Shown in pieces: positions 2,885 through 18,451 of a stretch of DNA of 20,167 nt. Made by a program: the position numbers and the translations under genes. The notes below the pieces were generated by a model. That model was not told where the DNA came from. It searched no databases and saw only the letters and a program-made list of their open reading frames with translations. Source of the DNA: a virus; the IMG/VR virus record IMGVR_UViG_3300042860_001207, positions 1-20,167 of that record, one strand, 5' to 3'. Within the stretch, counting starts at the first letter, position 1, and the number at the start of each line of letters is the position of its first letter.

Positions 2885-3331
2885 TCAGCGAATCCACACC
2901 GGTTCCGCGTCAGAACCGCGAGGCGGCATCCACGCACGCCAGGTCTTCCCGTTCTTTCCAACCCCGGTCTTGTACACCCAGTCCGGGCCAGGAGCCTCCG
3001 GGGTACCGGCAGGTGCCTCAGTAGCGGCCTGCGGCGCAGGTGCAGGCTTGGCTGGGGCTGACCCACCGAAGTGGTTGGCAGCCTTGCGTGTTGCGTCCAT
3101 CAGCTTCGCCAACTTCGCGGCGTTGTCGCCGGTCACCTGATCCAGGGCGTCATCGACATCCGTGGCGTGGATGACGATCCACGGGGAGTCGAACCCTGCA
3201 CCGCCCTTGAGTGTGAGGGTCAGCTTCCCCTCACCGGGGACCACAGCCTTCTTAGTGGGCGGCTTCTTGGGGGTCGGCTGCTCCACAACCTCGTCCACGG
3301 GTGCGTCCTCGAACGGATCGAAATCGGTCAA
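2885..3331 (-). CDS. Possible ssDNA-binding / replication accessory protein
   Basis: 148 residues. An acidic N-terminus (MTDFDPFEDAPVDEVVEQ) leads to a Lys-rich linker, then a compact domain from about 34 to 90 (KLTLTLKGGAGFDSPWIVIHA, DNAAKLAKLMDATRKAA), a Pro/Ala linker, and a short basic-aromatic tail (GKNGKTWRAWMPPRG). Its place just upstream of DNA polymerase I is where cluster A-like phages carry a protein often annotated as ssDNA-binding. I cannot confirm an OB fold by eye. The TTG start is chosen because AAAGG lies 8 bases upstream and no ATG or GTG fits. Hairpins at 3356-3424 separate it from the RNR gene. Confidence 0.75.
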   Translation of the reverse strand: MTDFDPFEDAPVDEVVEQPTPKKPPTKKAVVPGEGKLTLTLKGGAGFDSPWIVIHATDVDDALDQVTGDNAAKLAKLMDATRKAANHFGGSAPAKPAPAPQAATEAPAGTPEAPGPDWVYKTGVGKNGKTWRAWMPPRGSDAEPVWIR

Positions 3332-3430: not shown

Positions 3431-5458
3431 TTACCGAACAGGGCAGGAGCCGTTAGCGCACTCCTCATCGACCCCGTCAGAGATTTCCTTGCCCTGAGCG
3501 GATTCGTACTCCCACTTGTTGATCCGCTCATACGGCGACTGAGGCATCGACGCTTCCGGGAAGATCGTGGCACCCTTCAGGTGACCTGCGAATGCCCGTA
3601 GCTGATCCTCAACATGCTGAGGTTTGTACTGTTTGGGATCAACATTGGCGGTGAAACTCACAGCGTTGTCAGCCCAATACTGTTGGTACAGGCGTTGGAA
3701 TGCGAGCATCTGCTGCAACGTCAGATCGCTGGCAGCCTCCACCAAATCCTCACCGTCAGAACCGTAAATGTCCGTGACAGCCTGCACGAGTGTGTCTTTC
3801 GTCGGGAAAGACACAACCACCGTGTTGTCGGCGTACATGTCATCCTCGACTTCGAAACCCTGCGCCTCGTACTTGTCCACCATGCTCATCTGTTCCGGGT
3901 CGACCTTGGACAGCCGGACACGGCGGATGAAGTACCGGGCGAAGATCGGGTGTACACCCTCTGACACCCCGGACAGTTTGGCGATAGTCCCTGTCGGTGC
4001 GACTGTGCGTTTCTTGACCGGCACGGGGATGCGGAGGTCGTGGCACAGTTCCAGTGCGGCTGCGTCGACCGCGATGGACATCTGCCTGAGCAGAGACTTG
4101 AACGAGTCGTCCTGTGGTGCGTGGGAGTACTTCGTCCCGGTCATGGCGAGGTAGCTCGCCACACCGAAATGCCCGACACCGATACGGCGGTTACGGTCCA
4201 AAACCTCGCGGCTTTTGGGGTCACCGACCTCACTGAAGGTTGCCCGGATCAGGAACCGTGTCATCAACGTGTGTGCTTGGTACAGCCCGTAGATGTCTGC
4301 CTGCCCACGTTTGTCCACGAACCCGGCGAGGTTGACGTGGCCCAGGTTGCATGGTTCCCACGCTTCGAGCGTGATTTCCCCGCACGGGTTGGTGCATTCC
4401 ACCCCATTGGGTTCACCGACGTTCGACAGTGACGAGTCCCAGAACCCTGGTTCCCCGTTGTTCACCATGCCCTGCGAAATCGCTTTCAGTACACGGGCGG
4501 CTGTCCAGGCGTGACCCTGCTTGGCCTGATACCAGAACTCGTCATCAACCTCCACACTGATGTTCGTTGTCCAGTGCGACAGGCTTTCCTGTTTGATGTC
4601 GATGAACTTTTCGATCTGCGGGTCAGCCCAGTGCATCATTGCCATGCGTGCGGATCGCCGCACACCACCGGCAACCACACACTGTGCGATAGCGTGGTCG
4701 ATTTCCATAGCTGAGATACCGTCAAGCATTTCGAGGTCCACCGCCAACCGGTTGAACACCTGCGAAACATCAATCAGCATTTTCGCCAACGGCAAAGGGC
4801 CAGAAGCCCTACCGCCGAAGGTTTTCAGCTTGGAGCCTGCGGAGCGGACACGGGACACGTCGTACACCCGGTTGCGGTGTTCAACAATCGGGTTGTAGTG
4901 GGTGTCGATCAGATCGACTAAAGCGGCAGCCCACCCCTCGCGGGAGTCCTCAATCTTGAACGCCCCAAACCAGTCCGGGTCATACGTTTCCGACAGCAAC
5001 CCGGCAGCCTTCATGTCGTCGTAGTCCGCATGTTCCGGGTCACAAACGATTTCAACCTTCAACGCCTGCTTCACCAACGGGTACTGGGACAGATACTTGT
5101 TGCTGTAGTTGGCACCTACCCCGCCGCCCTCCATCAACCGCATGAAGGTGAACTCGAAGTGATCGGACGGGTTGGATGTCCAACCGGCCACCCAACAGTT
5201 GAACAGGTGCTGCGCGTTCTTCACACCGGATGCCCACAGGTGCCGTCCTGCTGGCAGGATTTTGAAGTCCAGCATCATGTCGATCAACTGTTGGCGTTCG
5301 TCTTCAAGCTGGTAACGCTCATCGACCAACGCGAGGTTGCCGTCGACCACCCGCTGCACCGTTTCCGGCCAGGTCTCCTTTGTGCCGTCTGGTTTGACCC
5401 GGCTGTAGGTGCGGTTGTAAACCAGTTCCCCGGTCGGACCCCAGTTAATGTCAGTCAA
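3431..5458 (-). CDS. nrdJ: Class II (adenosylcobalamin-dependent) ribonucleoside-triphosphate reductase
   Basis: 675 residues. It reduces ribonucleotides to deoxyribonucleotides for phage DNA synthesis using a radical generated from coenzyme B12. The Lactobacillus leichmannii-type (monomeric RTPR) signature is complete. The active-site cysteines are Cys88 (FNCW), Cys359 (NPCGEI, radical Cys) and Cys370 ([10 protein letters not shown]); the 11-residue spacing of the last two equals that of C408/C419 in RTPR. A C-terminal CANGSCPVR supplies the swinging redox pair (Cys667, Cys672). [19 protein letters not shown] is also typical. I chose the TTG at 5458, not the upstream ATG at 5503, because AGAGGAA lies 8 bases before it and TTGA overlaps the stop of the preceding gene. 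Its likely reductant is the NrdH-like protein at 8036-8278. Confidence 0.95.
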
Positions 5459-17579: not shown

Positions 17580-17909
17580 TTAGCGCCACACGGGCTTAGT
17601 GCCCCGTGGCATCTGGGCGATACGAACGTGGTTGCTCGCACCGTTGTCAACCGGTGAACGCTTGACGGGTGTCCGGCGGACGTAATCACCCGTGAACTCA
17701 TGCCTGTTCTGGGCGTACTCCGTGATGGCGGACTCTTTACGTCCGGCCGTGACACGCCGGTCTGTCACGAGCACTTTGCGGGGGGTGGCAACGGTGCCTG
17801 TCTTGACACGGTCACTGGTAGTGCCAACCATGGCTAGCTTGACCGGGTCGATACCGCGCTTGGCGAGCGCGGTGACCATTGCGGCGTGACGTTGTCTGCG
17901 ATTACTCAT
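17580..17909 (-). CDS. Basic hypothetical protein (109 aa), first gene of the leftward arm
   Basis: ATG at 17909 with GAGAGGACAAC upstream. The N-terminus MSNRRQRHAAMVTALAKRGI is followed by ATPRKVLVTDRRVTAGRKES and a C-terminus RIAQMPRGTKPVWR. It is strongly basic throughout, suggesting nucleic-acid or ribosome binding, without a recognisable fold. It is the first gene after the long structured leader, so it would be among the earliest expressed; that position makes a regulatory or host-takeover role possible (inference). Confidence 0.75.
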   Translation of the reverse strand: MSNRRQRHAAMVTALAKRGIDPVKLAMVGTTSDRVKTGTVATPRKVLVTDRRVTAGRKESAITEYAQNRHEFTGDYVRRTPVKRSPVDNGASNHVRIAQMPRGTKPVWR

Positions 17910-17928: not shown

Positions 17929-17941
17929 GTTCATAGTCAAG
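17929..17941 (+). promoter_or_regulatory. Stoperator-like 13-mer (site 13) with facing half-site
   Basis: GTTCATAGTCAAG. Its GTCAA (17936-17940) faces TTGAC at 17923-17927 across 8 bases. It lies between the tRNA-like element and the first leftward gene. Confidence 0.62.
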
Positions 17942-18025
17942 TGAGCGGTGCGGGAATCGAACCCAACGAACAGGCACGCCGCACCACCCGAAATACGTGG
18001 CCGCTCTCGCCTGTTCTCACCGCTC
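17942..18025 (-). ncRNA. tRNA-like structure without a normal D or anticodon arm
   Basis: On the minus strand the outer arms GAGCGGTG (18025-18018) and CACCGCTC (17950-17943) pair over 8 bp. Inside them is a T-arm-like hairpin GGG-TTCGATT-CCC with a canonical T-loop (17952-17964), placed as in a tRNA. In place of D and anticodon arms a second perfect 8-bp stem GAACAGGC/GCCTGTTC (18016-18009 with 17975-17968) closes a 33-base insert with a weak CCAC/GTGG hairpin. No CCA is encoded. I cannot assign an anticodon, so I do not call it a tRNA. Confidence 0.4.
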
Positions 18026-18371
18026 TCACCGGCGCTGGAACCGCCGGGTAAATCACTCGTGCATCCCGTAGGGCTAGCCCGCTAAGGGCGTTTCTCGCCG
18101 CTCTCGCTCTCGCAGTAGTGACTGGCTAGTGCTTCGCACCCGTTCCTAGCGGTGCGGGAGATTCCCAGTGTGATCTGCGATTCAGCGCGAGCGGTGTCGC
18201 TCGTGATATCGCACGTCGCGTCCCTGCTGCTCTTGCCCTGTTACCAGGGGCGCTAACCAGGTCACGCGGTTCGCCGGATCACCCGGCAGTCCCGACCGGC
18301 TACGTCTCGCGACGATGCCCGTGGTCGGGGGTCGTACCCCGGCCGCTACGGCCGGGCGGTGCTAGTGGCTC
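18026..18371 (-). other. Hairpin-rich untranslated leader of the leftward operon
   Basis: About 350 bases with no credible gene, downstream of the promoter at 18422-18450. Visible folds: 18338-18356 (CCCGGCCG/CGGCCGGG, 8 bp); an overlapping GGGG/CCCC hairpin around 18328-18340; 18176-18213 (TGCGAT/ATCGCA enclosing CGCGAGCG/CGCTCGTG, loop GTGT); and around 18236-18250 a CCCTG/CAGGG stem whose minus-strand loop is GTAA, a GNRA tetraloop. CCGCTCTC-like words recur on the plus strand at 18001, 18020 and 18099. It may be a stable ncRNA or a regulatory leader. Confidence 0.5.
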
Positions 18372-18391
18372 AAAACCCCCCGCGATCGGGG
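18372..18391 (-). terminator. Intrinsic terminator close behind the early promoter
   Basis: CCCCG (18378-18382) and CGGGG (18387-18391) form a GC stem with a 4-base loop, followed on the minus strand by GGTTTTG. It lies only about 25-45 bases past the start point expected from the promoter at 18422-18450, which suggests attenuation or a short RNA. Confidence 0.55.
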
Positions 18392-18421
18392 CCGGTCGAG
18401 CGGAAGAAACGAACACCCCGA

Positions 18422-18450
18422 AAGCTACCCGCACCACCGTTCATAGTCAA
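18422..18450 (-). promoter_or_regulatory. Early left promoter candidate (P-left-like)
   Basis: TTGACT (18450-18445), a spacer of exactly 17 bases, then TAGCTT (18427-18422): the best sigma-A type promoter in the window, reading left. Its -35 is embedded in stoperator-like site 14, the same arrangement as the operator at L5 P-left. It would drive the leftward early genes. Confidence 0.65.
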
Positions 18451-18451
18451 A
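18439..18451 (+). promoter_or_regulatory. Operator (site 14) over the early promoter -35
   Basis: GTTCATAGTCAAA, exact consensus. Its GTCAA (18446-18450) faces TTGAC at 18459-18463 across 8 bases. Repressor binding here would directly block the promoter. Confidence 0.66.

Follow-up and report, generated by a model that had tools for sequence, protein, structure and literature searches.

What ends the long non-coding leader RNA that precedes the first early gene in Cluster A actinophages, and what separates it from the mRNA behind it? According to the accessible sections of a study of these phages, the interval that separates the early promoter from the first gene gives rise to a highly abundant RNA in L5, D29 and StarStuff, which in L5 and D29 is the most abundant phage RNA of all (PMC5712189). 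In Kampy, the leader makes up 41% of phage transcription 5 minutes into infection and 51% at 15 minutes, as given in the accessible part of PMC4626039. The L5 leader is described as unusually stable and as processed to 100–400 nt, and the downstream transcript falls by >90%; its 3' end lies at 51,140–51,190 with no evident terminator, and both this end and the function of the RNA are reported as unexplained (accessible text of PMC5712189).

The same question is raised by a stretch of 20,167 nucleotides from the IMG/VR virus record IMGVR_UViG_3300042860_001207 (hereafter the window, i.e. the whole stretch analysed), which resembles Cluster A actinophages of Mycobacterium and Gordonia. A preliminary description of its sequence had pointed to a tRNA-like fold directly upstream of the first early gene, with an acceptor-like stem and a T-arm.

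A tRNA-like structure on the minus strand

The features of the locus are as follows, with the basis of each assignment in brackets.

17942–18025, minus strand: tRNA-like structure (TLS) of an acceptor stem, a single extra arm, a T-arm and a discriminator A (fold, chance simulation, position scan)
18019–18025, minus strand: 5' strand of the acceptor stem, GAGCGGT, 7/7 pairs Watson-Crick (sequence)
17943–17949, minus strand: 3' strand of the acceptor stem, ACCGCTC, followed by the unpaired discriminator A73 at 17942 and then CT (sequence)
17950–17966, minus strand: T-arm TTGGG-TTCGATT-CCCGC, loop at 17955–17961 (sequence)
18009–18016, minus strand: 5' strand of the second stem, GAACAGGC (fold)
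17968–17975, minus strand: 3' strand of the second stem, GCCTGTTC, with a single-base difference in the near-identical contig L002/L020 (fold, comparison)
17929–17941, plus strand: operator/stoperator-like 13-mer GTTCATAGTCAAG, an exact match that directly adjoins the 3' end of the TLS
18422–18450, minus strand: candidate early promoter TTGACT-17-TAGCTT, predicted start near 18414, overlapping an operator-like site at 18439–18451 (relaxed search)
17942–18414, minus strand: predicted non-coding leader of about 472 nt with the TLS at its end (from the candidate promoter)
17580–17909, minus strand: first early gene (109 aa), whose start lies 32 nt beyond the TLS (reading frame; conserved in L002 and L003)

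The element, for which the preliminary description had given the right coordinates and no strand, reads on the minus strand, as do the first early gene and its leader. Its acceptor-like stem comprises 8 contiguous pairs (GAGCGGTG/CACCGCTC), of which seven are acceptor pairs and one is stacked below, and the second stem, described as perfect over 8 bp, indeed pairs fully (GAACAGGC/GCCTGTTC). Measured against a canonical tRNA, the window has the 7-bp acceptor and the canonical loop TTCGATT, but its T-stem has only four pairs (GGG/CCC and one U-G) instead of five, the outermost T and C being mismatched.

The suggested fold check gave −43.5 kcal/mol for the minus strand (z −3.14), a value equalled by 0 of 200 shuffles. 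A stable fold is likewise predicted for the plus strand (−33.8, z −3.23); we rejected this strand as the functional strand, as the T-loop sits on the minus strand only. When the window was simulated 300 times with an order-2 Markov model, the combination of a T-arm, a 7-bp acceptor and an R-C tail within a span of up to 130 nt turned up 0.017 times per 20 kb, both strands included; the window has one. The tRNA-like element at 18025 to 17942 on the minus strand is confirmed as real.

Its placement at the leader 3' end, beside an operator and the first early gene, also holds, with the exact 13-mer on one side and the gene start shortly beyond it. The stoperator-like 13-mer has five matches with ≤2 mismatches in the window, all on the plus strand, where 0.28 are expected. 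A standard promoter scan of the window gave no site, and we infer the promoter from its TTGACT-17-TAGCTT sequence.

Comparison with known RNA classes

The normal tRNA with an anticodon that would speak against such an element is not found: ARAGORN reports neither a tRNA nor a tmRNA in the window (0 genes) and 0 in the loci of six relatives, and we rejected both classes on this ground. A known Rfam family was rejected as well, since the covariance search of the window matches none at the gathering score; the best permissive match, tRNA-Sec, reaches 17.2 bits (E 1.6), below its gathering score of 47.

The proposed resemblance to the tRNA-like end of tmRNA fails on the features tested. tmRNA shares the combination of acceptor and T-arm with reduced D and anticodon parts; in tmRNA, however, the rule is a G3-U70 pair, the mark of alanine identity, whereas the third acceptor pair of the window is G3-C70 and ARAGORN makes no tmRNA call. 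Among the 28 rows of the alignment described below, a G-U pair occupies column 3 in one.

A different parallel is offered by mascRNA and menRNA (Rfam RF01684). There, a TLS without normal decoding arms follows a long non-coding RNA, MALAT1 or NEAT1, and is cut by tRNA-maturation enzymes, which sets the 3' end of that RNA. The TLS of Gordonia phage KatherineG scores 27.7 bits against the RF01684 model, below the gathering score of 42.5, and the family was reported for the window in neither the gathering nor the permissive search. Unlike the phage elements, these are mammalian nuclear RNAs, and the likeness does not imply common descent. Finally, C4, a short antisense immunity RNA, would be a parallel as a phage RNA that is processed by RNase P. 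The accessible part of PMC11143913 names C4 RNA, tmRNA precursors and plant-virus ends as tRNA-like RNase P substrates, C4 being a phage-derived antisense RNA processed by the host enzyme.

The element in related phages

For a 301-nt part of the window leader, BLAST gives no meaningful match among phages, and we traced relatives through a conserved downstream protein, the D29 leader and sequence patterns instead. A TLS with acceptor and T-arm is carried by Cluster A-like actinophages including D29, SWU1, RedRock, Kampy, Piro94, Gordonia phage KatherineG and others. For 21 loci, among them D29 and Kampy, which were picked by name, we scanned the 250 nt upstream of the first leftward gene, or as much of it as existed. 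An acceptor, T-arm and R-C tail were found in 16 of the 21, against a shuffled rate of 0 to 0.003 per locus, and in all 16 the TLS ends 29–72 nt before the start codon (32 nt in the window). The same scan also matched 4/4 further IMG/VR loci. Six more phages carry the TLS (Serenity, BiancaTri92, Anselm, Mulciber, MP1 and PainterBoy) and were left out of the 21-locus count, as they had been fetched with a D29 leader query that included it.

The scan misses Adzzy, Kampy, Bxb1, jiawei and Reindeer, the last two of which lie outside Cluster A. By eye, weaker elements can be seen in Adzzy, whose acceptor contains several wobbles, and in Kampy, which has a 6-nt loop and a TLS (50,296–50,353) at a greater distance upstream from the annotated gene. 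Bxb1, of subcluster A1, has no TLS in the region covered (48300–50550, L006), and the element is consequently not universal in Cluster A. In the same locus, a promoter-like site is seen by eye only a short distance from the first leftward gene. A scan of genome contigs returned non-actinophage loci, and the T-arm matches there are not at an early leader.

The elements range from minihelices of about 45 nt to structures of >100 nt with three arms, and it is their middle that varies: some are bare minihelices, as in Phaded, while the D29-type has a D-arm-like hairpin and a third arm. The lack of D and anticodon arms noted in the preliminary description is therefore true of the window but not a common trait; what the elements have in common is the acceptor and T-arm half. 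In L021, the closest distinct relative (82% identity in the neighbouring protein), an acceptor, one arm and a T-arm are kept 29 nt before the first gene. L021 thus has the one-arm layout of the window with different stem sequences, a comparison that rests on separate folds, as the alignment of the two is not dependable in its 5' part. In the near-identical contig L002/L020, by contrast, the one substitution breaks a pair in the second arm, so this arm of the window is possibly less constrained.

Several further elements lie elsewhere. The Gordonia phages KatherineG, Remus and Waits carry a second, different TLS in an intergenic gap, 38–40 nt before another gene (L005:1603–1671, minus strand; L018:461–529, minus strand; L148:5301–5369, plus strand), which in KatherineG is SprT-like. 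The IMG/VR record L026 has a leader TLS at 3014–3107 and, in addition, a 43-nt minihelix at 3924–3966 (plus strand), in the gap upstream of a conserved gene near 4001. Very short minihelices are also found on environmental viral contigs, 28–39 nt before a reading frame (L128:3596–3641; L141:274–319; L137:4793–4837, minus strand), and may extend the class beyond the isolated Cluster A phages.

Covariation and conserved letters

Compensatory changes, which the preliminary description had suggested looking for, are plentiful. In addition to the stems that differ between L021 and the window, the D29-type elements (n=13, aligned with MAFFT, unguided fold) show double changes in 13 of 35 predicted pairs, with a covariation score of 0.296 compared to 0.109 for shuffled and ≤0.068 for slid partners. 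When the top halves of 28 elements are aligned, double changes occur in 12/12 pairs, 93.8% of cells pair and the score is 0.735 versus 0.200, although this set was partly selected for pairing, which inflates the percentages and makes the figure descriptive. Of 31 elements listed, L122 (SWU1) dropped out at extraction, and Kampy and MP1 were left out for a 6-nt T-loop and a bulge. Aligning all short types jointly with MAFFT put the 5' acceptor strands in the wrong place, and that alignment was discarded.

The 28 rows contain 18 different acceptor sequences and 20 different T-stem sequences, and TTCRA is present in every row. R73-C74 is likewise kept in 28/28; five of the rows (L128, L133, L136, L137 and L139) came from a pattern that requires an R-C-T tail, and without them R73-C74 is found in 23/23 and R-C-T in 20/23. 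The tRNA-Tyr of D29 also ends in ACT. In one locus (L113:5548–5601, minus strand), a real ACCA follows the TLS, as in a tRNA with an encoded CCA.

These patterns bear on two alternatives. The TLS might have decayed from a tRNA of the phage, or be what is left of an attachment site that was copied from the 3' end of a host tRNA. D29 has five annotated tRNAs, and phages often carry tRNA genes, just as integration often leaves tRNA 3' fragments behind (accessible text of PMC9897764). Yet compensatory change keeps the stems across many phages, conservation extends to the extra arms and to the 5' strand of the acceptor, and the TLS of D29 lies >20 kb from the integrase gene; we already disfavour this origin and regard it as very improbable.

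Alternatively, the structure could act in transcription, as a terminator or attenuator hairpin, or as a DNA hairpin in concert with the operator next to it. This is suggested by the operator that adjoins the TLS in the window and by a terminator-like match inside it (17985–17973), such matches being near chance (3 found, 1.2 expected). However, no T run follows the structure, operator-like sites seen by eye do not adjoin the TLS in relatives such as KatherineG, and a terminator does not require the conserved TTCRA loop, all of which makes a transcriptional role unlikely.

The element and the leader RNA of L5, D29 and Kampy

In SWU1, the TLS lies 1,069–1,160 nt from the right end. L5 is close to SWU1 and has a genome length of 52,297, and if the right ends are colinear, the TLS of L5 would occupy 51,137–51,228. 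By this scaling from SWU1, the interval falls on the reported 3' end of the L5 leader. The position of the SWU1 promoter is in line with the transcription start mapped in L5, at 625 nt from the end. On the scaling from SWU1, the predicted species would be a whole leader of about 535 nt, a 444-nt RNA from a cut ahead of the TLS and a TLS of 91 nt.

The accessible portion of PMC5712189 further states that the left half of the L5 leader could not be deleted: deletions of 51,195–51,619 and 51,195–51,407 failed, and that of 51,407–51,619 was obtained. Both failed deletions enter the scaled TLS interval, which the obtained one spares. The leader predicted in the window is of similar length to that of L5 (accessible text of PMC5712189).

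More generally, the abundant Pleft leader RNA of L5, D29, StarStuff, SWU1, RedRock and Kampy stems from the same genomic place, and the TLS is present in all four of these phages that we examined (D29, SWU1, RedRock and Kampy). The published RNA, by contrast, is described without a tRNA-like element in the accessible parts of both reports (PMC5712189; PMC4626039). For Kampy, a pile-up of reads near 50,400 is called a transcription start (accessible part of PMC4626039); it is off promoter-like sequences and not exactly at the TLS.

A probable processing signal at the leader 3' end

We consider it probable that the TLS serves as a processing signal at which the host RNase P and/or RNase Z cut, parting the leader from the early mRNA. 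In pre-tRNAs, it is the acceptor, T-stem and T-loop that both enzymes read, and the RNA of RNase P pairs with the R73-C74 region; these are the parts that the phage elements keep. In the nascent phage transcript, the acceptor stem and T-arm would stack and form the helix that marks a pre-tRNA for the tRNA-maturation enzymes. Host RNase Z would then cut after A73, and/or RNase P before G1, and the early mRNA would be released from a leader that is long, stable and non-coding. In this way, the 3' end of the leader could be set without a terminator, and the mRNA would be given a short 5' leader. The enzymes, the cut sites and the occurrence of the same events in the phage of the window are what we infer here. 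The L5 RNA ends published in the accessible part of PMC5712189 fit the position of the TLS without naming an enzyme, and the second copies in the three Gordonia phages and in L026 fit a general role in punctuation. Pointing the other way are the absence of a TLS from Bxb1, the weak T-stem of the window, the broken pair in L002/L020, the pile-up in Kampy and the terminator-like match inside the element.

The main rival explanation is that the TLS is retained at the leader 3' end without being cleaved, mainly to protect it as a cap or to serve as a protein tag bound by the CCA-adding enzyme, EF-Tu or an aminoacyl-tRNA synthetase, and stabilizes the leader or lets it mimic or titrate the tRNA machinery. 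It draws on the established knowledge that the acceptor and T-arm are also the footprint of EF-Tu and the CCA enzyme, as well as on the constant R73-C74. It is also consistent with the unusual stability of the leader and with the toxicity of the cloned L5 leader region in E. coli and M. smegmatis (accessible text of PMC5712189). Against it stands the >90% fall of the downstream transcript at this very place (PMC5712189, accessible text), as something must then end or cut the RNA, and the wide variation among the acceptors (18 distinct among 28) argues against one fixed aminoacylation identity. We therefore regard a retained 3' end as rather improbable, though less so than a transcriptional role, and continue to favour the processing signal.

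A broader model, which we put forward tentatively and with more doubt than the processing signal itself, would have a large group of actinophages use a rapidly diversifying set of anticodon-less tRNA mimics as punctuation of their early operons. Here, cuts by RNase P and RNase Z would end an essential and very abundant leader, and the mimic, as a substrate in great excess, may also tie up host tRNA maturation, which would explain the toxicity.

Implications

While tRNA-like RNase P substrates are already known, a conserved one in the leader of Cluster A phages is apparently new, as our searches of the open-access literature, in the portions accessible, found no earlier account of it. ARAGORN and Rfam at its gathering score both miss such elements, and similar ones may therefore be overlooked elsewhere. 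For L5, a TLS at the end of the leader would provide a specific and testable answer to the question of its unexplained 3' end. If this answer is true, these phages would be using the tRNA-maturation enzymes of their host as an operon processor.
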